From contig NZ_CP109149.1 of assembly GCF_035920345.1 (NCBI RefSeq), positions 3,596,001 to 3,660,000 of the forward strand: a stretch of 64,000 bases of DNA. Direction: 5' to 3'. Origin of the DNA: Nocardia vinacea. Lineage in GTDB: Bacteria > Actinomycetota > Actinomycetes > Mycobacteriales > Mycobacteriaceae. Positions 5,153 to 39,421 of this stretch are shown piece after piece (the first letter of the stretch is position 1; every line of letters begins with the position of its first letter). The position numbers and the translations under genes were made by a program. The notes below the pieces were generated by a model, which saw nothing but the letters and a program-made list of their open reading frames with translations, searched no databases and was not told where the DNA came from.

Positions 5153-5195
5153 CCAACCCATTGCGGTAATCGCCTGATTCGTGCCTGATGGATAT

Positions 5196-8100
5196 ATGAC
5201 CGCGACAATTCATAAAGTCGTGGCAGGCAATGGCTATCAGTATTACCTGCGTAATGTCGCCGCGAACGATGATCCCGCTCGCGGCCGGTCCAGCCTGGCC
5301 GACTACTACTCCGCTCACGGGGAGGCACCAGGGCGCTGGCACGGCACCGGCCTGGGGTCTCTGGGCATCACCACAGGCGATGAAGTCACCGAGGAGCAGA
5401 TGAAATCGCTGTTCGGTTTGGGTCGTCATCCCAACGCCGACGTGATCGAAACCTCGGTCTATGACGAACAGATCCGCCTCGGCGCGAAACACAAAGATGC
5501 TGCCCGCGCCGCCGATAAAGCCTCTCGTCTGGGTAACCCGTTTCGTGTTTATGCCGAGGTTTCCGAGTTCCGGAAACGGTGCGCGCAGGCATTCGAGCAA
5601 CACAATATTGTGCGCGGTTCAGACCCGCACGACGCCATTCCCGACACTGAACGGGCGCGGATTCGCACCACTGTCGCGACACAAATGTTCACCGAAACAT
5701 ACGACCGTGCGCCATTGAATGAGCGTGAATTGTCGGGGTGGGTGGCACAGAACTCTCGCCCGAACACGACCGCGGTCGCCGGTTTCGACATCACGTTCTC
5801 GCCGGTGAAGTCGGTGTCGGTGCTGTGGGCTCTGGCGCCGCGCGCGGTCGCGGAGAAGATCGAGGCCGCACACCAGGCCGCGATCGGTGACGCACTCGCT
5901 TGGCTCGAGCAGCATGCGGTGTTCACCCGGTTGGGGCGCAACGGGATCCGGCAGGTCGATGTCGAGGGCATCGTCGCGGCTGCATTCACCCACCGCGACA
6001 GCCGCGCCGGGGACCCGGACCTGCACACCCACGTCCTGATCGCCAACCGGGTCCGCGCCCTGGACGGGCGTTGGCGCACCCTCTACGGTGGCGCGATCTA
6101 CCAGGCGGTGGTCACCGTGTCCGAGATCTACAACACCCGCCTGGAGCACCACCTCGAAGATCTCGTCGGTGTGGAGTTCACCGAACGCGCCGGAACCGAT
6201 CCCACCAAACGGCCGATCCGCGAAATCGTCGGCATCCCACCCCGGTTGATCGAGGCGTGGTCACGGCGCGAAGCCGCGATCAAAGTGCGTTTGGGCGAGC
6301 TCACCGCCGACTTCCAACACCAGTTCGGCCGCGAACCCGTCCCCGGCGAAATCTATGACCTCGCCCAGCGCGCCACCCTGGAAACCCGCCCCGCCAAACA
6401 CCACCTACGCTCACTGGCCGAACAACGCACCAGCTGGCGGGCCGAAGCCGTCGCGCTGCTCGGCGGCCGGGAAACGCTGTCGCGGATAGTCGTGGCGGCG
6501 TTGAATCCGATTCGTGCGCCGCGTGTTCCGGTGTCGGCGCAGTGGATCGCGCACACCGCCGAGCGCGTGCTGGAGGTGGTGGCGGAGCATCGAGCGACCT
6601 GGCGGCCCAACAATGTGCGCGCCGAAGTCGAGCGGCAGATCCGCGGCCGCATCCGAGGCCAGGATTGGCAACAGGCCACCGAAGCCGTCTTGACCGAGGC
6701 ACTCTCACCGGCACAGTCGATCGGACGCGGCGACCCCGATATCGCGGACGTACCCGAATTGCGTACGGTGCCTGAGCTGTTGCGTCGTCGCGACGGCTCC
6801 AGCGTCTATACGGCCGCAGGCTCGCAGCTGTATACCTCGGCGCACACGTTGTCGGTGGAAAAGCAGCTGATCGAGCTGTCGGTGCAGTCCGGCGCCCGCC
6901 AACTCACCCCCGATACCGTGGCTGCGGCGGTGCGCGACTACAACACGCTGCACCCGGATAGGCCGTTGAATGCCGGGCAGGTCAGTGTGATCGAAGGATT
7001 CGCGACCTCGGGATTACGAGTGCATACCGCCAACGCCCCCGCCGGATCGGGCAAGACGACCGCGATGGCTGTGCTCACCGACGCCTGGCACACCAGCGGC
7101 GGGCAAGTCCTCGGTCTGGCACCCACCGCGTCAGCCGCCGCGGTGCTCGGGGAATCGATCGGCGCCCGGGTCGAGACCGTCGACAAGGTCCTCGACGTGT
7201 TATCGCGTCACACACCGCGCCCGGACAACCCGGCTTTGGACCGCGATGTCCCGCCGCCGCTGCCGCAATGGGTGCTGCAAATCGACTCCGACACGTTGGT
7301 CATCGTCGACGAGCACGTCAAACTCGGCAACCTCAAACGGCTTCGGCTGCTGCGGTTTCTGGCTTCTCGTGGTGCGACGGTCCGCTGTATCGGCGACGAT
7401 CAGCAACTGCCCGCGATCGAGGCCGGCGGCGCGGACGCGGACATGAACGCTGCCGCTCCCGAGCACACCCTGACCCTGACCCACGTCGTGCGGTTCGCCT
7501 CGACGGCCGAGGCGACGGCCAGTTTGCAGTTGCGCGAAGGCGATCCGGCCGCTCTGGGCTGGTATCTCGACAATGCTCGCGTGCACGCGGGCCACCTGGG
7601 TGCGACCCAGGATGACACCTACACCGCCTGGGCTGCTGACCATCTCGCGGGCCGCGAGGCGATCATGCTGGCCGCAAACCACGAGGTGGTCAAAGCGCTC
7701 AACGCTCGCGCCCGCACCGATCGCATCACCCGCAGCGGCGGCACCGTAGGCGCGGAATGTGTGCTCGCCGACGGCTTGGTTGCGTCGGTCGGTGACACGA
7801 TCCGCACCCGCCGCAACAATCCACGCCTACGTTTGGGCGCACACGACTGGGTGCGCAACGGTTACACCTGGACCGTCACCGCCGTTCACGACGACGGCAG
7901 CCTGACCGCAACGCATCTACGTTCCGGGGAAAAACGCGGTGCGAGTGTGCGGCTTCCCGCCGACTATGTGACCGCGCATGTGCGCCTCGGGTACGCCACA
8001 ACGATCGATTCCGCGCAGGGAATCACCGCCGATACCTGTCACATCGCGCTCACCGGAGGTGAATCCCGGCAGCAGCTTTACGTCGCACTCACTCGCGGTG

Positions 8101-11100
8101 TGTACGCGAACCACGCCTACATTCCGACCGCGTTGGACGGCAGTGAGGGCTCGTTCTGGAGTGAACCGGCGGTGTTTCCGCGCACCGCCGTCGAAGTTTT
8201 GCTGCGCATCCTGGGCCGCGACGGCGCACAAAAATCGGCACACACCCAACTACGCGACGCGCTCGACCCGCGGATCCGGATCGGGCGCGCCCTCGATATC
8301 TACCTCGACGCGCTCGGTGTCGCCGCCGAAAATGCCCTCGGCACTGAGCGTCTAGATCGTCTGGACGCCGCCGCGGAAGCTCTGCGCCCGCACCTCACCG
8401 ACAGCCCCGCCTACCCTGTTTTGCGTCAGCATCTGGCGATGATCGCGCTGTCCGGGCACGACCCGATCGAGGCCCTGCACACCGCCGCACGTCTGCGGGA
8501 ACTCGACACCGCCGATGATGTTGCCGCGGTGTTGGATTGGCGTCTGGACCCCTCCGGCGCGCATTCCACCGGCGCCGGACCGCTGCCGTGGGCACAAGGA
8601 ATCCCGCGCGGTCTGCGCGAGGATCTCGACTCCACACAAGTCACCCCGCGTGCCCGCATCGTCGGCGACCTCGCGTCCCAGATCCGCCGCGACAGCCATC
8701 AGTGGACTCCGGTCACAGCGCCGCACTGGGCCCGACCGCTCGTCGGCACCGATCCGGAGCTGCTCGGCGACCTCGCGGTCTGGCGCGCCAGCCTGCACAT
8801 CGACGACCGCGACATGCGCCCCACCGGAGCACCCCGCTACGGCGCGCTCGAACGTGAACACCAACAACTCCTCGACGCCCGCGTCACTGACGCGCTCGGC
8901 GATATCGGTCTGCCGGTGAACAAGTGGGCCGCCACCGTGCAGCGGTTGGAGGCCCGCGTCGTGACCGACCCGTATTGGCCCGTTCTCGCGGACAAGATCG
9001 AAGTCGCCTCCCGCGCGGGAATCGACATCGAAACCCGGCTCACCGACGCCTCGGCGCTGCGGCCGCTGCCCGATCAGATGCCCGCCGCCGCGCTGTGGTC
9101 GCGCCTGGAGTTGGAACCCTCCGCACTCGACACCGGCCGCGGACACCGCAACCTGCGCCCGGACTGGATCACCGATCTGCGCGCTGTTCTCGGTGACGAG
9201 GCCGCCGACCGGGTCACCGCCGACCCGGCATGGCCGCGTGTGGTCGCTGCGATCGACCGCGCGACCGGCACCGACTGGACGCCCCAGCAACTACTCGCCA
9301 CCGCGCACGAACTGCTCCTCGCCGCCCAACCCGACGACACCCCCGGCTTACGCCCCGACCAACTCGCCAGCGCGCTGGCCTGGCGCATCGACGCACTCCT
9401 GCACCACACACCCACCCCACACACCAACGCTCCCACCGCCGACGCGCCTGGTCGCGCGGATTCGCCCGAGTCCACCACGCCCCCTGTTGCACCACCGCAA
9501 CCCGAATACAACCAGGAAGGCCGCCAGACAATGCCCCCCGAACCCGTGTCACTACCGGCCTCCGAGGTAGACATCGGAACTGAAACCGACGCCGCTGAGT
9601 TCCCCGAACGTATTCGCGAGGTGGCCGAACTGTTCCGCACCGGCCAGATCGCTGTCGGCGTCGATGCGTTCGGCGAGCTCGCCGATATCGCTACCGATGA
9701 ACAACACACCGTCCTCGCTGACATCGCAGAAACTCTGTACCGCAATGCCTTTCCCGTCGCTCGCGCACGGTTGCGGTGGGCTGCCGAGCGTCTCCCTGAG
9801 CATCGGGCACTCATCGAGGCATGCACACCGACCAGCGACCCGCACGTCTACCAAACCCCCACCCGCCCAGCCGAACCCGGCTACCAGCGCGACCGACACC
9901 GCGAAGTCGCCCGCGACCACCCTGACCACATCAACCCCAATGCACGCCGCGAACAACTCACCGACGCACAGATCGCTGCCCGCCAAGCCGACCAGGGCTA
10001 CCACGACACCCGCGCCGACATCGACGACCAGCCCCACGACAACGTAGTTCCGGATGGAGTTCTGCATCACTACTACCGCGAGGTGTTACCCGATGCGCGC
10101 CCGAAGCACCGCCCACTCGATTACGACCGCGCCGCCCTTCCCGACACGCGCGGATTGGGCTGTGTCGCCTGTGGTCTGGAACGCACCCGCACCGACGCCT
10201 CCCCGGTGCCGCCGCGCCGTGCCGACGACGGGCTATGCGGCGAATGCCGCGACCGCAATCAGCACGGCATCCCCGACCACGATCCCGCCGACCACATCGC
10301 CGCACGCTGCGCCCACATCGCCGCCACCAAACCCCCCGCCGCCGCGCGCGCGATGCTGCGCCGCGACTGGCGTGCCAGCCCCAACCCAGCCCACCGGGCC
10401 GCGATCGAAGCCTGGCTCCACGACCACCCACTCCCGAACACCACCCAGCCATCGCGACGCACCGACCCAGCCACCGCCGACCCAGTGCTGGACAATCCGC
10501 TCTACCTGCTCACCGACACTCAACTCGACGAGCACATCGCCCAACTACACCAACGCCTCGCCCTCGCCGACACCGACACCATCCTGTTCAACCCACCCCA
10601 GCACCCACCCGATAATCAGCCAGACCCAGACGATCTCGCCCGCCGCCACACCGCAGCACAACAGGCGATCCGCGACGCCCACACCGCCGACCAGCAACTC
10701 CACACCGCCGCCAAAGCGTTCCACGCCGTCGCGACCGAACTCCACCAAGCCCGCACCGATCTCGACGCCACACCCACCTACCGACGCGGCCAACGCCGCA
10801 CACTCCCGGCCCTCATCGACACCCTGATCGCCGAACAAACTACACGCAGCCGCGAACACAGCACCGCACGAGCCGCCGCACGCCAGGCAAAACGTGACGC
10901 CATCCTGCTCGCCGGCACCCCCGACGGCTGGGACAAACTCCTGAACACCGCCCCTGAACACACACCAGACACCGACCAACACCACACCGAAGCAGGAACC
11001 GACACCGGCGAGGAAGTCCGGACCCGCATCGCCGACATCAACCAACAACTCGAGGAATACCGCGCCGAACAACACCGCCGCCGCAACCTCACAGAGACCC

Positions 11101-11222
11101 AGCTAGCGCACGAACAACACCATCGACAGCACGCCGAACCGGCAGACGAATTCGGCTATGAGATCAGCACCGACCACGCCGAGGCTGTCAATTACCTTCC
11201 ATACGATGACCTCGGACTGTAG
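5196..11222 (+). CDS. traA: MobF-family conjugative relaxase-helicase (TraA/TrwC type)
   Basis: 2008 residues from ATG 5196; a GTG at 5181 is an alternative. The N-terminal TrwC-type relaxase domain shows an early double Tyr (ADYYSAHG, Tyr37-Tyr38) and the metal motif HRDSRAGDPDLHTH near residue 266. A superfamily I helicase follows, with Walker A AGSGKTT near 616, a DEH Walker B, GDDQQLPA near 733 and YVALTRG near 962. It should nick oriT, stay covalently attached through tyrosine and unwind the transferred strand, pairing with the TraG-like coupling protein at 27981-29858. The last 550 residues are unusual: a helical domain near 1468-1545 and a zinc-ribbon-like CVACG...CGEC pair near 1655-1682, both shared with the protein at 2801-4375, then a long Gln/His/Arg-rich coiled-coil-like tail. 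The frame is intact throughout. Confidence 0.93.
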   Translation: MTATIHKVVAGNGYQYYLRNVAANDDPARGRSSLADYYSAHGEAPGRWHGTGLGSLGITTGDEVTEEQMKSLFGLGRHPNADVIETSVYDEQIRLGAKHKDAARAADKASRLGNPFRVYAEVSEFRKRCAQAFEQHNIVRGSDPHDAIPDTERARIRTTVATQMFTETYDRAPLNERELSGWVAQNSRPNTTAVAGFDITFSPVKSVSVLWALAPRAVAEKIEAAHQAAIGDALAWLEQHAVFTRLGRNGIRQVDVEGIVAAAFTHRDSRAGDPDLHTHVLIANRVRALDGRWRTLYGGAIYQAVVTVSEIYNTRLEHHLEDLVGVEFTERAGTDPTKRPIREIVGIPPRLIEAWSRREAAIKVRLGELTADFQHQFGREPVPGEIYDLAQRATLETRPAKHHLRSLAEQRTSWRAEAVALLGGRETLSRIVVAALNPIRAPRVPVSAQWIAHTAERVLEVVAEHRATWRPNNVRAEVERQIRGRIRGQDWQQATEAVLTEALSPAQSIGRGDPDIADVPELRTVPELLRRRDGSSVYTAAGSQLYTSAHTLSVEKQLIELSVQSGARQLTPDTVAAAVRDYNTLHPDRPLNAGQVSVIEGFATSGLRVHTANAPAGSGKTTAMAVLTDAWHTSGGQVLGLAPTASAAAVLGESIGARVETVDKVLDVLSRHTPRPDNPALDRDVPPPLPQWVLQIDSDTLVIVDEHVKLGNLKRLRLLRFLASRGATVRCIGDDQQLPAIEAGGADADMNAAAPEHTLTLTHVVRFASTAEATASLQLREGDPAALGWYLDNARVHAGHLGATQDDTYTAWAADHLAGREAIMLAANHEVVKALNARARTDRITRSGGTVGAECVLADGLVASVGDTIRTRRNNPRLRLGAHDWVRNGYTWTVTAVHDDGSLTATHLRSGEKRGASVRLPADYVTAHVRLGYATTIDSAQGITADTCHIALTGGESRQQLYVALTRGVYANHAYIPTALDGSEGSFWSEPAVFPRTAVEVLLRILGRDGAQKSAHTQLRDALDPRIRIGRALDIYLDALGVAAENALGTERLDRLDAAAEALRPHLTDSPAYPVLRQHLAMIALSGHDPIEALHTAARLRELDTADDVAAVLDWRLDPSGAHSTGAGPLPWAQGIPRGLREDLDSTQVTPRARIVGDLASQIRRDSHQWTPVTAPHWARPLVGTDPELLGDLAVWRASLHIDDRDMRPTGAPRYGALEREHQQLLDARVTDALGDIGLPVNKWAATVQRLEARVVTDPYWPVLADKIEVASRAGIDIETRLTDASALRPLPDQMPAAALWSRLELEPSALDTGRGHRNLRPDWITDLRAVLGDEAADRVTADPAWPRVVAAIDRATGTDWTPQQLLATAHELLLAAQPDDTPGLRPDQLASALAWRIDALLHHTPTPHTNAPTADAPGRADSPESTTPPVAPPQPEYNQEGRQTMPPEPVSLPASEVDIGTETDAAEFPERIREVAELFRTGQIAVGVDAFGELADIATDEQHTVLADIAETLYRNAFPVARARLRWAAERLPEHRALIEACTPTSDPHVYQTPTRPAEPGYQRDRHREVARDHPDHINPNARREQLTDAQIAARQADQGYHDTRADIDDQPHDNVVPDGVLHHYYREVLPDARPKHRPLDYDRAALPDTRGLGCVACGLERTRTDASPVPPRRADDGLCGECRDRNQHGIPDHDPADHIAARCAHIAATKPPAAARAMLRRDWRASPNPAHRAAIEAWLHDHPLPNTTQPSRRTDPATADPVLDNPLYLLTDTQLDEHIAQLHQRLALADTDTILFNPPQHPPDNQPDPDDLARRHTAAQQAIRDAHTADQQLHTAAKAFHAVATELHQARTDLDATPTYRRGQRRTLPALIDTLIAEQTTRSREHSTARAAARQAKRDAILLAGTPDGWDKLLNTAPEHTPDTDQHHTEAGTDTGEEVRTRIADINQQLEEYRAEQHRRRNLTETQLAHEQHHRQHAEPADEFGYEISTDHAEAVNYLPYDDLGL

Positions 11223-11270
11223 GCAGATTCTGTTGATGCAGTGAAAGGTGACGCAGAATGCCAGGATTTG

Positions 11271-11388
11271 TGTCAGCAATGTCAGCATCTCGCGGCGCTG
11301 CTGTCGGCATCTATGACACTAAACCTTTTGGTAATCCGTTGACCTGACACCATTTTCGCGCAGACCATGACATCTATGGATGTCAGCA
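11271..11388 (+). promoter_or_regulatory. TGTCAGCA repeats at the head of the radical SAM cassette
   Basis: TGTCAGCA occurs at 11271-11278, 11280-11287 and 11381-11388; the first two are 9 bp apart and the third overlaps codons just after the first start codon of the radical SAM gene. TTGACC near 11339 could be a -35 element. The spacing suggests a regulator site, possibly for the WYL protein encoded in the same cassette. No -10 element is clear. Confidence 0.45.
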
Positions 11389-12422
11389 ATAGCCGCCCCA
11401 AGGCGCTTCGTCTGCCGCAGTTCCGCGTCACGCTGAACGCGCGGTGCGGCCGGGCCTGCTTCTTCTGTCGCCCGTCCGGTGAGGCCGTCGCCACCGCCGC
11501 GGGCAGTGAACTGCCCGTCGATCACCTCATTGCCGTTGCCAAAGTGATTCGCTCGGCCGGGATCACCAGCATCAAGCTGACTGGCGGTGATCCAGCCCTA
11601 TACGACCCCCTTGAACTCGCGGTGCGGCGTCTACGAGGCGAGGCCGGTTTCGAGGAGATCGAGATCATCTCGCGGCATCCTCGTATCGGTGAGCGAGCCG
11701 AACACCTTGCCGCCCTAGGGGTGACACAGTTCAACATGAGCATCGATACCTTGGATCCGCAGTTGCATCACGAACTGTGCGGCGTCGACGATCTACCCCA
11801 GGTGATCGGTGCACTGCAGCGCTGCGTCCAGACCGGCGTGCCGGTCAAGGTCAATACGGTGGTCATGGGCGGCATCAACGACGACGAGATAGAGCAGCTC
11901 GCCGATTTCTGCGCGCACAACGGCATCCGGACCCTCAAGTTGCTCGACGTCATCAAGGATCTGGACGAGGGCGCAGAGAGTTTTGCCCGGCGCTTGGCGA
12001 TCAAGCGGCGCAAGACCCTTCGCGATCTGTACACGCCGCTGGAGGTGTTCTCCGAGCGTTTCGCGGCCCAGGCGGTGAAGCGTGAAGTGATCAGCCAGGG
12101 CGGCCTCGGGCATCCGATGACGGCGACCACGCTGCCGACCGGATTGAAGCTGATGCTGAAGGACAGCAAGGCGGGTGCGTGGTACGGCTCGGTGTGTGAT
12201 GGCTGCCCGTTCTACCCGTGTCACGACGCGCTGATGGCGCTTCGCCTCACTGCGGATCTGCGGTTGCAGTATTGCCTTCTGCGCCAGGACAATACGCTCG
12301 ATCTACAAGGGGTGATCGGTGACGAAGAGCGCCTACGGGCCGCTGTTCTCCCGGCGTTGGCACCGTATACGCAGGCGACATTCCGGACGCCGGTGCGGCT
12401 GAAGCTGGAGGTGGGGGCATGA
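11367..12422 (+). CDS. MoaA-like radical SAM enzyme with a C-terminal auxiliary cluster motif
   Basis: 351 residues. Cys27, Cys31 and Cys34 form the CxxxCxxC site for the SAM-binding [4Fe-4S] cluster, followed by TGGDP, the usual SAM-contacting motif. Near the C-terminus Cys277, Cys280, Cys285 and Cys303 with 'ALRLTADLRLQYCL' resemble the second-cluster region of MoaA, though the spacing differs from classical MoaA. It is unlikely to be a molybdopterin enzyme because no other moa gene is nearby. It heads a tightly spaced cassette and its stop overlaps the next start (ATGA). ATG 11376 is an alternative start. The substrate is unknown; a peptide, nucleotide or amino-acid derivative is possible. 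Confidence 0.85.
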   Translation: MTSMDVSNSRPKALRLPQFRVTLNARCGRACFFCRPSGEAVATAAGSELPVDHLIAVAKVIRSAGITSIKLTGGDPALYDPLELAVRRLRGEAGFEEIEIISRHPRIGERAEHLAALGVTQFNMSIDTLDPQLHHELCGVDDLPQVIGALQRCVQTGVPVKVNTVVMGGINDDEIEQLADFCAHNGIRTLKLLDVIKDLDEGAESFARRLAIKRRKTLRDLYTPLEVFSERFAAQAVKREVISQGGLGHPMTATTLPTGLKLMLKDSKAGAWYGSVCDGCPFYPCHDALMALRLTADLRLQYCLLRQDNTLDLQGVIGDEERLRAAVLPALAPYTQATFRTPVRLKLEVGA

Positions 12423-13789
12423 CGAGCTTTCTTGGGCTACCGGGCAAGCGTCCGCTGGTGATTTTGTTGTACCCCAAGGTCGATCATGAGAAGGACTACG
12501 TCTACTTCTGGATGCCATTCTCATTGCTGACATTGGCCAAACCACTGATGGACGATGACTTGGCCGATGTGGTGTTGTTCGACGGCAACCAGCACAGCGC
12601 GGCCGACTGGGAGCGCCTGCTGAATGAACACCTAGACCGGACGCTCTGCATCGGGGTCAGCATCATGACCGGCGGTGGGCAGATTGGGCACGCGCTGGAG
12701 CTGGTAAAGATAGCCAAAGAACGAAGCAACTGTCCGCCAGTGGTTTTCGGCGGACCTCACGTTAACGTTCTGCCTGATCAGACGGCCCGCCATGAGCTGG
12801 TTGATGCCGTTCTGGTTGGGCCGGGACAGAATTCGATGCCTGCGTTCGTCACCGCGCTTCGAGACAAAGCGAATTGGGAGGATGTGCCCGGCCTGATCAC
12901 CCGTCGTGGTACGGAGTTGGTCCGCGGGCCGGTCAATCCGCCCCGTACCGGCTTGATGGGCCATTACCCCTGGCATCTGCTCGATGTTGAGAAGTACGTG
13001 CGTGATGACCCGACCGTGGCGCCGCGGACGCTGAATTACATCAGCTCCCAAGGCTGCGTCTACAAGTGCCAGTTCTGCTACGAGCTGACCTACCAACGCA
13101 AATACAGTGCGATGGCGGCCGATGGGCTGGTGGCGGACATTGACGACTTGCGGCGGCGGTATGGCCTCAATGGCATCAAGTTCTACGATGCCGACTGGTT
13201 CGTCAATCTGCGCCGTGCTGCAGCGTTCTGCGAGGGTGTGATCGAGGGCGAGCTGGACATCCGGTGGGCGGCCTCAATCAATCCGAATGACATCCTGAAA
13301 GCGCGGCGGGCCGGTATTCCTCTGCTGGAGCTGGTAGCGAAGAGTGGCGGCTCGCGCCTGCTTATGGGGATCGAGTCGGGGAATGAGCGGGTGCTGCGCG
13401 ACGTGGTGCGAAAGGAGGTCACGCGCGACCAAATCCGTGAGGTGACAGCGGATATTGCGGGGCATGGCCTACTTGGGTCATACACCTTTATCGTCGGCTT
13501 TCCGGGCGAACAGGACGACGAGGTGGACGACACCTACAGCCTGATCGAAGAGCTGCGCCAACTGGAGCCCACACCGGAGACACGGGTGCATCTGTTCGCG
13601 CCCTACCCGGGCACGCCGCTGTACGAAGATGCGGTGCGGGCCGGCTTCGAACCACCCTCGACGCTCGAAAATTGGTCGCATTTCGACTACTACGACTCCC
13701 AGACACCGTGGACCTCGGCCGCTACGGTGGCACGGGCACGGGCCGCCACCCAGATGCGGCTGCGGCCAAAAGCAGTCCTACAGGGTTGA
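12419..13789 (+). CDS. B12-binding-domain radical SAM enzyme
   Basis: 456 residues, starting inside the stop of the previous gene (ATGA). The N-terminal 190 residues look like a cobalamin-binding Rossmann-type domain with 'VVFGGPHVNVLPD' near residue 108. The radical SAM core begins with Cys213, Cys217 and Cys220 in 'SSQGCVYKCQFCYE'. 'MGIESGNERVLR' and 'TFIVGFPGE' are typical of the B12-dependent class that methylates or rearranges unactivated carbons. With the preceding MoaA-like enzyme it gives the cassette two radical steps. The classical DxHxxG cobalamin motif is not obvious, so base-off binding may apply, or cobalamin may not be used. Confidence 0.85.
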   Translation: MTSFLGLPGKRPLVILLYPKVDHEKDYVYFWMPFSLLTLAKPLMDDDLADVVLFDGNQHSAADWERLLNEHLDRTLCIGVSIMTGGGQIGHALELVKIAKERSNCPPVVFGGPHVNVLPDQTARHELVDAVLVGPGQNSMPAFVTALRDKANWEDVPGLITRRGTELVRGPVNPPRTGLMGHYPWHLLDVEKYVRDDPTVAPRTLNYISSQGCVYKCQFCYELTYQRKYSAMAADGLVADIDDLRRRYGLNGIKFYDADWFVNLRRAAAFCEGVIEGELDIRWAASINPNDILKARRAGIPLLELVAKSGGSRLLMGIESGNERVLRDVVRKEVTRDQIREVTADIAGHGLLGSYTFIVGFPGEQDDEVDDTYSLIEELRQLEPTPETRVHLFAPYPGTPLYEDAVRAGFEPPSTLENWSHFDYYDSQTPWTSAATVARARAATQMRLRPKAVLQG

Positions 13790-13849
13790 ACTCGTTCTCA
13801 CGATTCGCCCGTCTGTCCACAACAATTTGGAATCTTGGAGGCAACTTCT

Positions 13850-14788
13850 ATGGCCGAAGCCATCCTTCCTCGCGCGCTCAAGTCCGGTGACCGCGTCGGC
13901 ATCGTCACTTCGTCGGCACCGGAGCCATTCACTGATCCTGAATGGTTCGAGCGCGGCCTGACTGCGCTCAAGGCTGCGGGCTTTGACGTTGCGGTGGCAC
14001 CCACCGCGACCCAAGGGTTCGGCTATCGGGCCGCGCCGGAACAACAGGTGTTGGCCGATCTTGATGCCTTCGTGCGTGATCCTGCGACCAAGGGCATCAT
14101 CTTCGCCGGTGGCGGCAAGAACTCCAACCGCCTGCTCGGCGGACTCGACCTCGGCGCACTGGCCCAGCACCCGAAAGTCATTGTCGGGGTGAGCGATCCG
14201 ACCGTGCTGCTCAATGCCATCACCGCCCAGACAGGTCTCATTACCTTTCACGGTCCCTCGGTGGTCTGGGATTGGGGCACTGAGCAGTTGAACGAGTTGA
14301 CCGCGTCGCACTTCGTACAGACTGTTGGTGGCCAGAAAGAGGCGGGCCGCTTCGACGGCTCCTCGCTGCGGGTCCTGCGGCGAGGCCACGCCGAAGGGCA
14401 TCTCGTCGCCGGATGCTTGTCCGCGGTACGCAACCTGCTCGGCACGCCGTTCGAGCCGAACTGGGACGGCGCGATCCTGGCATGGGAAGACGTAAGCAAG
14501 CCGATTGAGCTGCTTGATGCCACGCTGACGCATTTTCGGGATCTGGAAGTGCTGGACAAGATTTCGGGCATGGTCGTTGGCGAACTGGTCAACTGCGAAG
14601 ATTCGCGCGGCTGGGGTGTCGAGGCCATGCTGCACGACCTGACTGACGACTACGACTTCCCGATCCTGACCGGACTGCCCTTCGGGCACACCAGCACCAA
14701 GTACACCCTGCCCATTGGCGCGCAGGTGCGGATCGACACCGGCGATGCGTCACCGCTGCAAGTCGTCGGTCCGTGGGTCAGCAAATAA
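13850..14788 (+). CDS. S66-family peptidase (LD-carboxypeptidase / MccF type)
   Basis: ATG 13850 follows TTGGAGG at good spacing; 312 residues. The catalytic Ser is Ser115 in 'GVSDPTVLLNA', Glu213 is in 'AWEDV' and His280 in 'GLPFGHTSTKYTLPIG', the order of the S66 Ser-Glu-His triad. There is no signal peptide, so it acts in the cytoplasm. S66 enzymes either trim peptidoglycan tetrapeptides or, as MccF, cleave aminoacyl- or peptidyl-nucleotide antibiotics and give immunity. Beside an aminoacyl-tRNA-synthetase paralogue and two radical SAM enzymes, an immunity or processing role is more attractive than wall recycling, but this is inference. Confidence 0.88.
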   Translation: MAEAILPRALKSGDRVGIVTSSAPEPFTDPEWFERGLTALKAAGFDVAVAPTATQGFGYRAAPEQQVLADLDAFVRDPATKGIIFAGGGKNSNRLLGGLDLGALAQHPKVIVGVSDPTVLLNAITAQTGLITFHGPSVVWDWGTEQLNELTASHFVQTVGGQKEAGRFDGSSLRVLRRGHAEGHLVAGCLSAVRNLLGTPFEPNWDGAILAWEDVSKPIELLDATLTHFRDLEVLDKISGMVVGELVNCEDSRGWGVEAMLHDLTDDYDFPILTGLPFGHTSTKYTLPIGAQVRIDTGDASPLQVVGPWVSK

Positions 14789-14819
14789 CCAAGTAGCACA
14801 GGAAAAGTGGGGGTATCCC

Positions 14820-15827
14820 ATGACCGTTCTCACCAGCAGCGACCGGCAGCAGTACGGCCGGTTCCTGCATCACCACAAGCAGGAGCGCGAACTGGCCACT
14901 CGCCGCCTGCACTTCATTCAGGCCGTCCGGGACTATCTGCGATCCAAGGGATACCAGGAGACCCCGGTGCCGGTGCTGACCCACTATCCGGAAAGCGCAC
15001 CGATCGGACAATTCGAAACGCGCGACCCGATCAGCGGTGAAGGCTACTACCTGCGGCACTCAGCCGAGGAGTTCCTGCGTCGGCTGGTGGTGGCCATCGA
15101 GCGCGTCTTTGATCTCGGCCCGGTTATGCGGGCCGAAACTCCGGATGCCATGCGAGCGGTGGAGTTCGTCATGTTGCAGTCGGCCGCCCGCAGCATCAGC
15201 GTGGGTGAGGGCATCGAGCTGGTTGTCGGGTTGGTGCAGAGCGCCATTCAATCCGCCTTCGGTACCCAGCAGGGTGAATACGTCGATCTGAGCAAGATCA
15301 CCATCAAGCGGTTCGACGAGGCGGTCGCCGAGCAGCTCGGTTTGGACATCGAGCTGCCGGACATCGAGCTGCTTCCCACTGCCCGCAAGTGGCTTGCCGA
15401 TCACCAGCTCGCGGCCGATGGCACCGACTGGGAAGTGGCCGAGGCATTCATGAAGCACGCCATCGAGCTGCGGCAGCAACAGCCCACCGTGCTGACCGAC
15501 TTCCCAGCTATTCTCAAGCACAACAGTCAGGTCGACCCGGCATCCGGTCGTGCCCAACGCTTCTCGCTCATCGTTGATGGCATCGAGTGTGCTGATGGTG
15601 GATTGAAGCTGCGCACCAGTGACGACTATCGCTCCATGGTCGACGCCAATGCCGCACTGCGCACCCAACTGTTCGGTACGCCGATCGACGACGGCCCCAC
15701 CGATTTCTACGCCGACGTCGACACCGACCCGTGTGACGTTGTCACGTTCGGCCTTGGGATCGACCGGGTGCTGGCCGTCTTCACCGGCCGATCGATTCAC
15801 GATCTGCAACTCTTCCCCTACCACTAG
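14820..15827 (+). CDS. stand-alone class II aminoacyl-tRNA-synthetase-like ligase
   Basis: 335 residues from ATG 14820. It has a class IIb (Lys/Asp/Asn) catalytic core: 'GYQETPVPVLTHYPESAPIGQFET' region near residues 44-67, motif 2 'GPVMRAETPDAMRAVEF' near 100-116 with its Arg and Glu, and motif 3 'FGLGIDRVLAVF' near 310-321. No N-terminal anticodon-binding domain is present, as in EpmA (PoxA/GenX), which attaches lysine to elongation factor P. It should activate an amino acid as an adenylate and pass it to a protein, small molecule or carrier rather than charge tRNA. The neighbouring 136-residue protein is a possible acceptor. Amino-acid choice cannot be read by eye. Confidence 0.82.
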   Translation: MTVLTSSDRQQYGRFLHHHKQERELATRRLHFIQAVRDYLRSKGYQETPVPVLTHYPESAPIGQFETRDPISGEGYYLRHSAEEFLRRLVVAIERVFDLGPVMRAETPDAMRAVEFVMLQSAARSISVGEGIELVVGLVQSAIQSAFGTQQGEYVDLSKITIKRFDEAVAEQLGLDIELPDIELLPTARKWLADHQLAADGTDWEVAEAFMKHAIELRQQQPTVLTDFPAILKHNSQVDPASGRAQRFSLIVDGIECADGGLKLRTSDDYRSMVDANAALRTQLFGTPIDDGPTDFYADVDTDPCDVVTFGLGIDRVLAVFTGRSIHDLQLFPYH

Positions 15828-15838
15828 GAGCTGCGTAC

Positions 15839-16249
15839 ATGGACGCGTTGCCCGAGTTCCGCGCGGTCGTCATTCGCGAGAGCCTGATCGGCGGTGACCT
15901 GCCGGCCGATCTTCGCGAAGCCGCAGCACGCGAGTATCCGCACCTGTTGGATGAGGTCACGCCGATCAGCATCATCGAGTTCCCGGTTGCTGCCGACGTC
16001 GCGCTACAGGTCACTATGCAGCTGGCCGAGGTCCTGCTGCCGGAAAAGTACTACGCCCACCTGGTCTCCGAGGGAGAGATGCTGATCGCTTTCCCAAATA
16101 CCGCCTACCGCCTGAGCCGTAACGACGAACGCGGCGAACAGCAGGCCCAGGCCATCGGTCGCGTCTTCGGCATCCCGGACGAGCAGATGCGCTTCCTGGA
16201 GATGTTCGAAGTCGATCATCCCGACGCCCCCGCGCTCGCGGCGGAATGA
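15839..16249 (+). CDS. small acidic protein of unknown function in the radical SAM cassette
   Basis: 136 residues; ATG 15839 follows TAGGAG. The sequence is acidic, with 'IIEFPVAADVALQVTMQLAE' in the middle, 'KYYAHLVSEGEMLIAFPNTA' after it, and a C-terminal 'IPDEQMRFLEMFEVDHPD'. I recognise no family. Lying between the synthetase-like ligase and the SDR gene, with which it overlaps (ATGA), it could be a binding protein, a substrate carrier or an enzyme of a new family. It contains few lysines, so a lysine-based acceptor role would depend on the single site near residue 62. Confidence 0.75.
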   Translation: MDALPEFRAVVIRESLIGGDLPADLREAAAREYPHLLDEVTPISIIEFPVAADVALQVTMQLAEVLLPEKYYAHLVSEGEMLIAFPNTAYRLSRNDERGEQQAQAIGRVFGIPDEQMRFLEMFEVDHPDAPALAAE

Positions 16250-16968
16250 CCGCAGCACGCCTCGCTGTGGTCGCGGGCGCCAGCGGCGCGATCGGCTCGG
16301 CAGTCACTAGCCAGCTTGCCGAGGCCGGCTGGTCGGTGATCGCCACCTATCGAAAGCAGCAGCCCGATCCGATCCACGGCGTCACCTGGGTGCGCTTCGA
16401 CGGCACCCGCGATGACGAAACCGAACAACTCCGCACGGCGATCCAGGCCGCCCTGCGGCCGGTCTCCGCAATCATCTGCTGCATCGGTGCGCCGTCTTCC
16501 AAACGGCGCATCGCTGATACGCCCGGAGCCGAATTCGACGCGGTGTTCGCGTCCAATGTCACTGCCGTGGTGCGCTTCTGGCAGATAGTTGGTCATTCGG
16601 CTCGGGTGGGGAAAGCCGGTGTCGTGGTGCTGGGATCCAGCGCCACCGAGACCCTGCGGCCAGGCAACGGCGCATACAGCGCGGCTAAGGCCGGACTGGA
16701 GGCCCTGGTTGCCACGCTGGCCGTCGAAGAGGCGGAGCACGGCGTCCGGGTCAATCTCGTCGCACCGTCACTGGTGGACTCACCGCTGGCCGAATCCATC
16801 TTGGCTCTGAAAGGTGTGACCGACCCGGTTGCGTACTACCAGGCTCTGCCGTGGGGCCGAGCATTGACGACAGACGAGGTGGCCTCGGTTGCCATCGATA
16901 TCGCGACCACGCCACACTGGCGCTATGCCAGTGGTCAGGTGGTGCGGCTCGCGGTGCGTGGTGAATGA
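16246..16968 (+). CDS. short-chain dehydrogenase/reductase
   Basis: 240 residues, ATGA overlap with the gene before. Cofactor motif GASGAIG at 11-17, catalytic Ser near 131, Tyr144 and Lys148 in YSAAK, and the 'GVRVNLVAPSLVDSPLA' segment are all present, so it is a complete classical SDR. It should oxidise an alcohol or reduce a carbonyl with NAD(P)(H), as a tailoring step within the cassette. Its stop overlaps the start of the WYL regulator, so all three are translated together. Confidence 0.88.
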   Translation: MTAARLAVVAGASGAIGSAVTSQLAEAGWSVIATYRKQQPDPIHGVTWVRFDGTRDDETEQLRTAIQAALRPVSAIICCIGAPSSKRRIADTPGAEFDAVFASNVTAVVRFWQIVGHSARVGKAGVVVLGSSATETLRPGNGAYSAAKAGLEALVATLAVEEAEHGVRVNLVAPSLVDSPLAESILALKGVTDPVAYYQALPWGRALTTDEVASVAIDIATTPHWRYASGQVVRLAVRGE

Positions 16969-18020
16969 CCACGACTAAACGCCACGCCCGCCAGGTGGGC
17001 ATCGTCCATTTGCTGCGCTCCCGCGAGTGGGTCTCGGCTGCATCCTTGGCACAACGATTCGAGGTTGCCCCGCGCACCATCTACCGGGATATCGAGGAAC
17101 TGTGCGCGGCCGGCGTCCCGATCGAATCCGTGCCCGGGCCAGAGGGCGGATATCGGTTGGCGTCTGATCAGCCACTGTCACCCCTGACGCTGGAAGCGGA
17201 TGAAGCGCTCAAGCTCTACGTGATCAGTCTGCTCGACCGATCAGACGATGCCGCCACCACGACCGGCATCGAGGGTTTCACCAACGCCTACTCCCGGGAG
17301 GCATTGCGCCGGTTGAGCCAGCGCATCTATTTCGACACCGCCGACTGGTACTGGAAGGACGAAGGCTCCGGTCACCTGCCGGTGGTTCGCCAGGCGCTGC
17401 TCACCGGCACCGCAGTCAAGATGAGCACCCGCGTCAAAGGCACCAATGAGCCCGCTACCTCGATCGTCAAGCCGTACGGCATCATTTGGAAGTCCGGTGA
17501 GTGGTTCCTTGTCGCCGCTCCGATCGATGAGCAGCCGGAACGCTACCGGCTCAACCTGGTCGACCAGCTCAGCCCGACCGACTTGCGCTTTTCCTATCCC
17601 GAACAGTTCCAGCTGCGCGAGTGGTGGGCCGACGAAATGGAGGCGTACGGCAAGGGCGAGGTGCTCGTTCAGCTCCGCGTCGCACCCACCGCCCGCGACG
17701 AAATGGCAAGGCTGACACTAAAATCCAACTCCAAGCTCATCAGTACCCCAGACGGGGGATTGACCATCAAGCTGTACGTCGATCGTTGGGAGTGGCTGAT
17801 TCCGCTCGTCACCAGCTACGGCGCCGACGTGCTAATCGAAGAGCCCGAAGCATTGCGCCACGCAGTCATCGCGCACCTAGCGCGGGCGCTTGACGCGTAT
17901 GACCAGGCAGTTTTCAATAAGGACAGCGGCCCGGAGAGTGAGCGGAGCAGCTACCGCAACGACGATTCCCGACTTCGCTCCACCCGCGGACGCGCATCCA
18001 TCGGAGACCTCCATGCCTGA
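16965..18020 (+). CDS. WYL-domain transcriptional regulator with N-terminal HTH
   Basis: 351 residues; ATG 16965 overlaps the preceding stop. The N-terminal winged HTH ('WVSAASLAQRFEVAPRTIYRDIEEL', residues about 22-46) is of the HTH_11/DeoR type. A WYL ligand-binding domain follows, around 'VKPYGIIWKSGEWFLVAAP' near residue 165, with a C-terminal WCX-like region. WYL regulators sense nucleotides, nucleic acids or small metabolites. Being encoded inside the cassette, it probably controls it, and the TGTCAGCA repeats at 11271-11388 are a candidate target. The tail after residue 320 is polar and low in complexity. Confidence 0.88.
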   Translation: MTTTKRHARQVGIVHLLRSREWVSAASLAQRFEVAPRTIYRDIEELCAAGVPIESVPGPEGGYRLASDQPLSPLTLEADEALKLYVISLLDRSDDAATTTGIEGFTNAYSREALRRLSQRIYFDTADWYWKDEGSGHLPVVRQALLTGTAVKMSTRVKGTNEPATSIVKPYGIIWKSGEWFLVAAPIDEQPERYRLNLVDQLSPTDLRFSYPEQFQLREWWADEMEAYGKGEVLVQLRVAPTARDEMARLTLKSNSKLISTPDGGLTIKLYVDRWEWLIPLVTSYGADVLIEEPEALRHAVIAHLARALDAYDQAVFNKDSGPESERSSYRNDDSRLRSTRGRASIGDLHA

Positions 18021-18987
18021 GCCCACCACCCTGAACCACACCGACACTCTGCTGCTTGCGGTCAAGCAGCCCTTTCACTTTCGTTACACACTGTGGAAGC
18101 CGTCCCACTTCGCCACCGATCTAGAACAACACAGCCGGGACACCAGCTGGCGCACCTTCCGCGTCGGCGAACGGATCTGCGGTGTGGTCATGACCATGGA
18201 CAGCGACGACATCCTCCGCGCTGAAGTATTCAGCGATTCCGGCTGGACCGACGCTGACCGGGATCGCCTGAGCACCCGCCTGATTCACTCCTACGGCCTC
18301 AGTGAGGACATCTCCGCTTTCGTCGCCGAGGCCGAACGTGTGCCACAGATGGCCGCACCGCTGTCAGAATTGGCCGGGATGCGGCAAAGCTGCCCCGAGA
18401 ACCTGTTTGAGATCGCCATCATTTCGCTGCTGCTCCAAAACGCCACCATAGCGCGCACCACGCAGATGATGACCAACCTGCTCGACCACTACGGCCACCT
18501 CGCCACCTTCGACGGCGTCACACTCAAGGCGTTCTTCACCCCGGCAGATATCGCCGGGATCGATGAAGCCGTCTTCCGGGAGCGCGACCGACTTGGATAC
18601 CGCGCCAAGTACATTGGCCGCTTCGCCGAGTTCTTCACCAACCATGACCCGGACGAAGTCGATCACGCTTCTAAGGCCGAGCTGATGACGAAATTCCAAA
18701 CGATCAAGGGGGTCGGACCGTACACGGCGGCGATCATCGCCGGGTCCGCCGTCCGCGACCCCTCAGCCCTCGGTCTGGACGTCTGGAACCGCAAGATTCT
18801 CGCCCAGCGTTTCCTCGACCTAGATGACGCCGAAGTCCCTATCGTCCAAGCCAAGATGAGCGAACTGTTTCCTGGATACGAAGGGCTCGCCGGCCTGTAC
18901 GTGATCGAGGACGTCTATCGGCAGCAGGCGGTGGTGGCGTTGGTGGGTGAGATCGAGTCAGCCCCAGACCGGTGGACCAGGAAGTAA
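18013..18987 (+). CDS. HhH-GPD superfamily DNA glycosylase
   Basis: 324 residues from ATG 18013, preceded by CGGAG and overlapping the WYL gene's end. The helix-hairpin-helix 'TIKGVGPYTAAIIAG' spans about 230-244 and the conserved catalytic Asp is Asp256 in 'GLDVWNR'. The region 128-150 matches the AlkA/OGG1 fold core. It should excise a damaged or modified base. Producers of DNA-alkylating natural products carry dedicated glycosylases for self-protection, so a resistance role within this cassette is worth testing; ordinary repair is the alternative. The Cys pattern of a FeS cluster (as in MutY/EndoIII) is absent. Confidence 0.83.
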   Translation: MPEPTTLNHTDTLLLAVKQPFHFRYTLWKPSHFATDLEQHSRDTSWRTFRVGERICGVVMTMDSDDILRAEVFSDSGWTDADRDRLSTRLIHSYGLSEDISAFVAEAERVPQMAAPLSELAGMRQSCPENLFEIAIISLLLQNATIARTTQMMTNLLDHYGHLATFDGVTLKAFFTPADIAGIDEAVFRERDRLGYRAKYIGRFAEFFTNHDPDEVDHASKAELMTKFQTIKGVGPYTAAIIAGSAVRDPSALGLDVWNRKILAQRFLDLDDAEVPIVQAKMSELFPGYEGLAGLYVIEDVYRQQAVVALVGEIESAPDRWTRK

Positions 18988-37548: not shown

Positions 37549-39254
37549 CTACTCGCTTCCCCTGCTGCGGGCAGATTGTCGAAGCGGCGGTTGGTGTTGT
37601 GGATGTCGGCGGCGCGCTCGGTGGGGGTGAATACCAGCCGGAACGGGATGCCGGGTTCGTTGGCTTCACCGGTTTTGAGCAGGAAACAGCCTGTGCCCGG
37701 TGGGGTTTCGCGGCGTGAGGGGTCCAGGTCGTCATCGGAGGGTGGCCGAGGAGCCGCCCACGAGGTGACCAGGCGTTTCTCGGTATCAGTGATACCGACC
37801 GCAGCACGGATGCGATCGATCTCCTCTGGCCCCACCGGACCGATCAGCTTCGCCCGAGCTCGCTCGAAGAACCCGAGGGCTTTGGCTTGCGCGGCAGGCG
37901 AATCGAAGCTCGACAGGTCCTTGATCGTGTGGCTGCACATGATCAACCCAGTGCCCAGGACACGGTTGAGTCGGGTGAGGGCATCGACGCGATCGACCAT
38001 GAATTCGCCCACGCCGAGCACACGCCAGATCTCGTCCATGACGACTTCGAACGTGCGTGGCGGGGCGAGTCCGGCATCAGCGAGTGCGTGGGCGGCGGCG
38101 ACCGCGCCGAAACCCTCGCTCCAGCAGACCATCAGCACTGCCGCCAAGAGCTTGGTGTCGCCTTCAGGTATGCGGCTGACGTCCACACACACTGCGGGGC
38201 TGGCCAGATCTAGGCGGGTGGTGGTCGGCCCGTTGAAGATCGCGCCGAACGGTCCTTCGACCAGCGCGCGCAGGGACCGGCGCAGGGTTTTGGTGCTGGC
38301 GCGGTAGGCGGGTTCGTCGTCTTCTTCGGCGAACTGGCGCAGTTGGTCGCCACCGCCGGAAATGACCTCGAGCAAGTTCGACAGAATCGGCGGGTGTTCG
38401 TAGCTGAAACCCCCTGCGGGGCTGTAGAGTTCGCGCAGCCCGGCGGCGAGCAGTACTTCTTCGTAGTCAGCGACGCGGGATCCGCGCACGAGCTCGATGA
38501 GCCCGGCAACGATGTTGACCTGCCCGGCCTCCACGCGCGCGGTGACCTGGCGCCGCTGGTCGGGGTCGGCGAGTCGCGCCACCACAGCACCGAGCGCGCC
38601 GACATCCAGGGGGTTGATGGTGCCGTGCCCATAACCGACGTCGACGACCTGCCCGCCGAGTTCCACGACAAGGTCGCGGTAGTCGGGTTTGGTGTCACCC
38701 ATGCACAGCACGGTTTCCCCGGCCACGACCGCGCCGGTCACCATGCGCCGGATCAGACTGGATTTGCCGAAACCATTGAGCGCCAGCACGAACGCGATCG
38801 GGGCGGTGATGAAGCCGCGCAGAAACCAGCTCATCGGGTCGAAATGCACGGGCGCGCCGGTGATGTAGTGCGCACCGACCGGGGTGCCAACGGTGGGGGC
38901 GCTGGCACCGACGGTGAAGGGCCACAGCCCGCCCACTTGCACGGTCGTCGCGCGCCATTCCGGCATGCCGGGCACGACCGCGGCGCGGCCACCGCCGAGC
39001 CCGCGATAGCCGCGATCGGTCAGCGCCAGCAGCGATCGGTCGAAGCCCTCGCGGCCGGTTTCCTCCCCGCGACCGGCCGCGGTCGCCCGGCGATGATCAT
39101 CGCTGGATATCGCCAGCCGTGCCCGCCAACCACGCAGGCCAGACTTGGCGGCAGACGCCTCGATCGCGGCGCGCGCCTGCGGTGTGAGAACGCGGACACC
39201 GGCGATTGTTTCGGTGCGGGTGGGGCGAGATCTCTTGGGGCGCTGGGTGTTCAT
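37545..39254 (-). CDS. VirB4-like T4SS ATPase
   Basis: 569 residues; ATG 39254 overlaps the stop of the 44-residue ORF (ATGA). Walker A is NGFGKSSL near 160-167 and Walker B 'VVMDEIWRVLG' near 402-412, with 'MCSHTIKDLSSF' after it, typical of the VirB4/TraC/HerA family in actinobacterial systems. It should power channel assembly and substrate passage at the inner membrane. The recombinase element inserted just upstream separates it from the SCO6880-like gene, its usual operon partner. Confidence 0.88.
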   Translation of the reverse strand: MNTQRPKRSRPTRTETIAGVRVLTPQARAAIEASAAKSGLRGWRARLAISSDDHRRATAAGRGEETGREGFDRSLLALTDRGYRGLGGGRAAVVPGMPEWRATTVQVGGLWPFTVGASAPTVGTPVGAHYITGAPVHFDPMSWFLRGFITAPIAFVLALNGFGKSSLIRRMVTGAVVAGETVLCMGDTKPDYRDLVVELGGQVVDVGYGHGTINPLDVGALGAVVARLADPDQRRQVTARVEAGQVNIVAGLIELVRGSRVADYEEVLLAAGLRELYSPAGGFSYEHPPILSNLLEVISGGGDQLRQFAEEDDEPAYRASTKTLRRSLRALVEGPFGAIFNGPTTTRLDLASPAVCVDVSRIPEGDTKLLAAVLMVCWSEGFGAVAAAHALADAGLAPPRTFEVVMDEIWRVLGVGEFMVDRVDALTRLNRVLGTGLIMCSHTIKDLSSFDSPAAQAKALGFFERARAKLIGPVGPEEIDRIRAAVGITDTEKRLVTSWAAPRPPSDDDLDPSRRETPPGTGCFLLKTGEANEPGIPFRLVFTPTERAADIHNTNRRFDNLPAAGEASR

Positions 39255-39385
39255 GCCAGTTCCCCATCACTCAGGTTCGACTGGTGGCGAGCAGTGGCGG
39301 TGAGCCGCAGACCAGGGGCCTTAACCGTGATACGTGCTGCGATCGGCGTGTTGAGGTTGTCTCGGCTTTTCTGAAGTGGTCTCAT
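39251..39385 (-). CDS. 44-residue ORF starting at the recombinase element boundary
   Basis: ATG 39385 is preceded by GGAAGGAGATCGAGAAAC, a very good ribosome binding site, and its TGA overlaps the VirB4-like start. The peptide is basic ('PIAARITVKAPGLRLTATAR'). The start codon and RBS lie inside or at the edge of the inserted element while the rest belongs to the operon. It may be the tail of a small gene cut by the insertion and given a new start. Confidence 0.5.
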   Translation of the reverse strand: MRPLQKSRDNLNTPIAARITVKAPGLRLTATARHQSNLSDGELA

Positions 39386-39390
39386 GTTTC
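39371..39390 (+). repeat. left attachment-like repeat of the recombinase element
   Basis: CTGAAG-TGG-TCTCAT followed by GTTTC. It matches the right end in CTGAAG and in the TCA...GTTTC block but is only half palindromic. The 44-residue minus-strand ORF begins within it. Confidence 0.5.
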
Positions 39391-39421
39391 TCGATCTCCT
39401 TCCACGTCGGGTGAAGGCGAG

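Follow-up and report, generated by a model that had tools for sequence, protein, structure and literature searches.

Here, we report a compact gene cassette of Nocardia vinacea, located in the stretch 3,596,001–3,660,000 of one 10.36-Mb contig (NZ_CP109149.1); this whole stretch of 64,000 nucleotides is called the window, and positions below refer to it. Eight plus-strand genes are packed at 11367–18987, and all eight open reading frames (ORFs) that an earlier note on this DNA had listed are present, with the families named for them found by Pfam and NCBIfam. In order, they encode rSAM1, a MoaA-like radical SAM enzyme (11367–12422; Pfam Radical_SAM, 4.7e-26, NCBIfam, and an 11-sequence alignment); B12-rSAM, a B12-binding radical SAM enzyme (12419–13789; Pfam B12-binding and Radical_SAM, NCBIfam); an MccF-like S66 peptidase (13835–14788; Pfam Peptidase_S66 and S66C); LIG, a class II ligase resembling LysRS and EpmA (14820–15827; Pfam tRNA-synt_2 (D,K,N)); U136, an uncharacterised 136-amino acid protein without a Pfam or NCBIfam match, which serves as the marker of the cassette family (15839–16249); a short-chain dehydrogenase/reductase (SDR) oxidoreductase (16246–16968; Pfam adh_short); an HTH-WYL-WCX transcriptional regulator (16965–18020; Pfam HTH_11, WYL, and WCX); and an HhH-GPD protein (18013–18987; Pfam HhH-GPD and a predicted model). 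Comparison with relatives moved the LIG start from the first TTG of the ORF at 14715 to 14820, places that of HhH-GPD at about 18013, and makes 13850 the probable start of S66. The stop/start overlaps noted earlier are found in four gene pairs, i.e., rSAM1/B12-rSAM (12419–12422), U136/SDR (16246–16249), SDR/WYL (16965–16968), and WYL/HhH-GPD. A gene for a 2013-amino acid protein (5181–11222), labelled relaxase-like by eye, precedes the cassette.

The cassette has definite edges, at about 11263–18987, since a conserved unit is set between unconserved flanks: when four Nocardia loci are aligned, about 100 bp 5′ of rSAM1 are kept in patches, and inspection by eye reveals no conservation farther upstream in these four, or beyond the HhH-GPD stop in a comparison of three loci. 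The plus-strand region 11263–11366 combines this patchy conservation with direct and inverted repeats. The direct repeats are TGTCAGCAAT at 11271 and TGTCAGCATC at 11280, with a further copy at 11381 within the rSAM1 coding sequence; the inverted repeat of 13 nucleotides (11263–11275/11314–11326) is 85% complementary. At up to two mismatches, the window contains a single copy of the 15-mer TGTCAGCAATGTCAG, where 0.15 copies are expected. We consider this region a candidate promoter/operator, perhaps for the WYL protein, which would control the operon via these repeats; the role of a switch proposed for this regulator is likely.

A search for the gene order in actinobacterial genomes, which the earlier note had proposed, returned the identical eight-gene order in Nocardia, Streptomyces, and Streptacidiphilus. 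In the tblastn synteny table, ten loci carry all eight genes in this order (the window, L004, L005, L009, L010, L011, L012, L013, L016, and L017), with 46–91% protein identity to the window among the complete loci. Against L010 and L011, the ratio of nonsynonymous to synonymous change (dN/dS) of all eight genes is 0.06–0.30 (for U136, 0.30 and 0.20), and with nine other loci of identical order this tells us that the cassette is not a chance arrangement. A search with the U136 alignment returned nine plasmid records; of 25 pattern stretches in GTDB genomes, 10 proved to be loci, one of them the Calothrix plasmid for a second time. All seven plasmid records inspected, i.e., all of the nine except rows H23 and H28, hold cassettes or variants. 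The five plasmid records that match HhH-GPD and the four that match LIG at 49–52% are all among these nine, and the remaining LIG plasmid matches listed reach at most 28% identity. Known copies therefore sit on plasmids of Streptomyces, Nocardia, and Calothrix, three genera in two phyla. Conserved order and plasmid carriage together argue for a mobile biosynthetic cassette and not for scattered housekeeping genes: that the cassette is conserved and mobile is firm, and that it is of biosynthetic type is probable, so the single functional cassette read from the window alone has held up against nine further loci and the plasmid variants. A housekeeping reading was tried and set aside, as the two other LIG-like genes of the same genome (LysRS and LysX by their length rather than by a scan) are only 27–29% identical to LIG and are located elsewhere.

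Besides the window's type (type A), several variants were recognised. Type A′ comprises L006, a Nocardia asteroides plasmid with eight genes and the ligase ahead of S66, and L008/L019, a Calothrix plasmid with six genes. Their ligases match each other at 166 bits by tblastn versus at most 87 bits between L006 and type A; a separate ligase clade is not pressed, because the global identities are near-equal (L006–L008 32%, L006–type A 25–33%). L015 (S. olivaceoviridis) is decayed, with ligase and WYL gene broken, and the 2 kb that separate S66 from the end of its contig yielded no radical SAM gene. Type B (L014, L018, and the N. farcinica plasmid L128) consists of rSAM1, B12-rSAM, U136, SDR, an FkbH-FGE fusion, S66, HhH-GPD, a glycosyltransferase, and WYL; no LIG is found in the synteny table, and the fusion (FGE by Pfam, the FkbH part by eye) and the glycosyltransferase stand in its place. 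A second, divergent U136-like gene lies just 5′ of rSAM1 in type B (L014:7034–7477, L018:7046–7483, L031, L032). The type B copy of an N. cyriacigeorgica plasmid (L007 and L129, NZ_CP026745.1) is split by an insertion inside the B12-rSAM gene; its halves are about 40 kb apart by the shorter arc of the circular plasmid, one adjoining a Tn3-family transposase and the other an integrase. Its HhH-GPD protein is 27% identical to that of the window over 163 residues and has a Pfam match. DUF4254 genes recur upstream of type A′ and B cassettes (L006:2906–3843, L018:6415–6930, L129:4641–5156). A nucleoside hydrolase gene is upstream of type B in L018 and L129, and these occurrences are not counted as independent since the two loci are of closely related origin (the FkbH-FGE genes of L018 and L007 share 96% identity, and L007 and L129 are one record).

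The two remaining types are more distant. Type C (L060/L089, genome G328 of the window's class) has counterparts of four of the eight families, rSAM1 (68% identity to the window), B12-rSAM (38%), HhH-GPD (29%), and U136 as a PHP-U136 fusion, plus a methyltransferase read as HemK-like; no match to S66, LIG, SDR, or WYL was found in the fetched stretches. Its neighbours are nonribosomal peptide synthetase (NRPS) condensation, adenylation, and carrier domains and a CmlA-type hydroxylase; its HhH-GPD gene is more loosely linked than in the other types, at a distance of about 15 kb from rSAM1. Type D (L088/L066, genome G104 of the window's genus) has counterparts of all eight genes at 24–35% where measured: B12-rSAM 28%, rSAM 24%, S66 26%, LIG 35%, WYL 31%, and a partial U136 homologue 25%, with an RmlD-like reductase, an HhH-GPD protein, and again a HemK-like methyltransferase. 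The replacement of LIG by FkbH-FGE and a glycosyltransferase in type B, or the NRPS neighbours of type C, is as expected of natural-product clusters.

Both radical SAM genes had been taken as B12-type. This is right for the second enzyme and wrong for rSAM1, which is without a B12 domain in Pfam. Like MoaA (GTP 3′,8-cyclase), rSAM1 has a radical SAM core and a second cysteine cluster: C27, C31, and C34 (CxxxCxxC) and the C-terminal C277, C280, and C303 (CxxC...C) are invariant in 11 sequences, and MoaA models are its best NCBIfam matches at 125–127 bits, below their cut-offs of 231–325. The residues aligned with MoaA R17, S126, and K163 are kept, whereas K69 is replaced by Ser and R71 by Lys, the counterpart of R192 is Arg in the window and variable among relatives, and the C-terminal GG of MoaA is missing. 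B12-rSAM has ApyD as its best NCBIfam model, with 115 bits of the 750 needed. If the MoaA-like enzyme were a prokaryotic viperin, the cassette would be an anti-phage defence island, for which a weak PADLOC pVip match (35 bits), the WYL regulator, and the carriage on mobile elements may be cited. We regard this as very improbable: the MoaA models reach 127 bits for rSAM1 and the NCBIfam viperin model 27 of its 180 bits, PADLOC, given 10 proteins, returned nothing beyond pVip (rSAM1) and WYL/Cas3c models (WYL protein), none of the 37 stretches matched in a viral-contig scan with the U136 alignment encodes a relative, and one variant is located among NRPS genes.

LIG consists of tRNA-synt_2 as the sole domain found, without an anticodon-binding domain (Pfam, alignment); LysRS chains match it across the catalytic domain, and class II motifs 2 and 3, the adenylation motifs, are retained by eye in the alignment, in keeping with the amino-acid-linked chemistry envisaged for this locus. 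The Glu of the LysRS "SEL" motif, a contact of the lysine amine, is Lys in 6/6 aligned ligases of types A and D and Gln or Asn in two A′ ligases. With the modification of elongation factor P (EF-P) by EpmA/EpmB and YmfI, the cassette has in common a stand-alone LysRS-like ligase, one radical SAM enzyme, and an SDR whose best match is YmfI, so it could be imagined to modify a translation factor or U136 itself. LIG matches the EpmA/GenX NCBIfam model at 76 bits (curated cut-off 287), lacks an anticodon domain as this reading would have it, and has diverged jointly with U136 in the single exchange seen (below); the best model of the SDR is YmfI (92 bits, below the cut-off of 238). Such protein modification is nevertheless quite unlikely in our estimate, because rSAM1 is MoaA-like and not like lysine-2,3-aminomutase (23.5 bits with that NCBIfam model), the lysine-site residue is changed, no EF-P-like gene is among the eight (Pfam; flanks judged by eye), and the ligase is replaceable, types B and C retaining U136 while no ligase is found in them. 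The nearest PDB chains of S66 are MccF (E 1.3e-37), and Ser, Glu, and His of the catalytic triad are aligned. For U136, the AlphaFold 2 model has a predicted local distance difference test (pLDDT) score of 90.4 and is ferredoxin/PII-like; fold comparison gave no significant match. U136-like proteins (about 25–49 bits) are scattered in other actinobacterial genomes, mostly without an adjoining cassette (L036–L071; e.g., L055:7428–7832 and L062:7490–7855), and two stand-alone ones tested have no Pfam match.

In a set of eight complete loci, which is without L006, L009, and L016, the pairwise identities of any one gene track those of the others with r of 0.80–0.96, which is what joint descent of an operon gives. 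L006 divides the genes into two sets. Its rSAM1 (74%), B12-rSAM (84%), SDR (70%), WYL (71%), and HhH-GPD (77%) are close to those of the window, with dN/dS of 0.11–0.28, and its S66, LIG, and U136 are at 44, 25, and 47% identity with dN/dS of 0.47, 0.92, and 0.54. With L006 added (nine loci), r is 0.95 for LIG–S66 and 0.93 for U136–S66, and 0.44 and 0.36 for LIG–HhH and LIG–B12. It looks as if the ligase–S66–U136 block was exchanged as a single specificity unit in N. asteroides, and because of this joint divergence LIG and S66 are named as the likely partners of U136. Amino-acid ligation with a swappable specificity block is in our view moderately supported.

The predicted model of the HhH-GPD protein has the full AlkA/OGG two-domain fold with the helix-hairpin-helix. 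It differs from these DNA glycosylases in that the Ogg lysine position is Tyr in the window (Tyr or Ala across the alignment) and the catalytic Asp, retained by the window and the aligned sequences of types A and B, is replaced by Ser in those of types C and D. The protective role once assigned to the glycosylase is weakened accordingly: it fits the window type, and types C and D still carry the gene with the Asp lost. A product that damages DNA, with the AlkA-fold protein repairing self-inflicted base damage and the WYL protein sensing it, would account for the fold, the Asp of types A and B, and the company of WYL and glycosylase genes, which are neighbours in type A and are found together in types B and D as well; WYL regulators of the DNA-damage response exist. 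The Ser of types C and D speaks against it, as does the Calothrix cassette, around which neither WYL nor glycosylase was found within the fetched 18 kb, and LIG, S66, and the HIT genes described below are left unexplained; we hold this explanation unlikely. A possible parallel is the nucleotide N-glycosylase Qng1 (formerly DUF2419), which is reported to resemble 8-oxoguanine glycosylases and to act on queuosine-5′-monophosphate (PMC11592518).

Resistance-like genes accompany some of the cassettes, HIT genes among them in Streptomyces. An ABC transporter–HIT–phosphotransferase block is 3′ of the cassette in L004, L009, and L015, and the phosphotransferase is incomplete in L005; L005 and L017 have a different HIT gene in divergent orientation, and the L013 contig carries, about 8 kb past HhH-GPD, a homologue of the HIT gene of the block (L094). 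HIT hydrolases of microcin C (mcc) clusters confer self-immunity via phosphoramidate cleavage (PMC7157772). An MccF-type S66 peptidase, compact plasmid-borne organization, and the HIT hydrolase beside some relatives are shared with mcc; in contrast to mcc, no ThiF-type MccB domain is found by Pfam in the eight proteins, and a LysRS-like ligase and radical SAM enzymes are present instead. No MccA-like precursor peptide was seen in the upstream region viewed, where a peptide of 7 amino acids could escape viewing. A parallel to LIG in natural-product pathways is AcmF of ascamycin, a class II aminoacyl-tRNA synthetase (aaRS)-like aminoacyl transferase; it is described in the abstract as an alanyl enzyme (PMC12945691), whereas LIG is of the Asp/Lys/Asn family. 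About 2.5 kb upstream of a Streptomyces plasmid cassette, L005:323–1993 encodes class II core, editing, and anticodon domains and is ProRS-like. A candidate self-resistance pair, oriented divergently to the type D cassette, consists of a W/Y-type synthetase gene that we read as TrpRS and, behind it, a gene judged by eye to be PhyH-like (L088:12294–14308). In the genome of the window, a W/Y-type synthetase gene with a lower score, the third of its kind there, lies at a great distance from the cassette (G000:C1:6571844–6572671).

Taken together, we lean toward the view that this is a horizontally moving biosynthetic cassette making a bioactive small molecule. In this proposal, MoaA-like rSAM1, B12-rSAM, and the SDR would turn a metabolite, possibly a nucleotide, into a shared core. 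LIG, given its adenylation motifs, would adenylate a non-lysine amino acid and transfer it to the core without tRNA; S66, judged by family and triad, may hydrolyse an amide or adenylate-like bond for self-immunity or maturation, and U136 may assist these two enzymes, for instance as a protein that binds the conjugate. The AlkA-fold protein might excise a damaged DNA base or hydrolyse a nucleotide intermediate. The HIT and the ProRS- and TrpRS-like genes, together with the MccF-type S66, point to an aminoacyl-nucleotide-like product attacking aaRSs; the nucleotide core and the aaRS target are both speculative. A more specific formulation, i.e., a class of undescribed, plasmid-spread natural products with a nucleotide-derived core, a swappable ligase–peptidase–U136 block, and an AlkA-fold protein recruited from DNA repair, is tentative and on balance doubtful.

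Several points weigh against the biosynthetic proposal or parts of it. The block exchange is one event in one genome, its dN/dS of 0.47–0.92 between L006 and the window comes with near-saturated synonymous change, and without L006 all genes correlate about equally, which fits plain joint descent too. A nucleotide substrate for rSAM1 is a guess, because residues that bind GTP in MoaA are missing. Amino-acid ligation is not universal, since neither LIG nor S66 was found on the fetched stretches of type C, and type B likewise shows no LIG in the synteny table. HIT and additional aaRS genes adjoin only some loci, no locus has the whole set, and none is recognised by eye in the window. Finally, PF00579 has at least two matches in each of 12 genomes (more in 7), and the extra W/Y synthetase copy adjoins the cassette in G104 only; aaRS self-resistance as a general rule was rejected on this count.

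The cassette is rare and patchy by its counts in samples of the genus, the class, the cyanobacterial phylum, and the Streptomyces family; please note that scoring covered just a portion of the first-look candidates (at most 5 to 27 per genome), so misses are possible. At E ≤ 0.001, U136 matches 11 of 150 genomes of the genus, 6 strongly (at least 184 bits) and 5 weakly (at most 36 bits, type D being one of these), and 17 of 394 genomes of the class, where the window alone is strong and the other 16 are at 25–49 bits; the only match among 244 cyanobacterial genomes is the seed itself. rSAM1 at 1e-60 is found in 3/345 genomes of the Streptomyces-family sample, all three of them seeds. HhH-GPD at 1e-15 is found in 49/394 genomes of the class, with only the window and G328 above 400 bits and the others at 83 or less. 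This gene set is not described in the literature searched (titles and abstract beginnings, most subscription papers and bioRxiv being outside the scope), and no paper on the plasmid pFRL6 was found there. What the cassette offers is a testable pathway family, spread by plasmids between genera and across one phylum boundary, in which swapping three genes as a block may alter the amino-acid tailoring. It also offers likely partners for U136, itself an uncharacterised protein family; a ligase derived from LysRS, of probably altered specificity; and possibly antibiotics that target aaRSs, with the resistance genes close by.

Elsewhere in the window, three features were recognised by eye: a tyrosine-recombinase-like ORF at 39206–40504, genes resembling those of conjugation, and, near 1.4 kb, an SSB-like ORF. 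The window looks like an integrated conjugative element.

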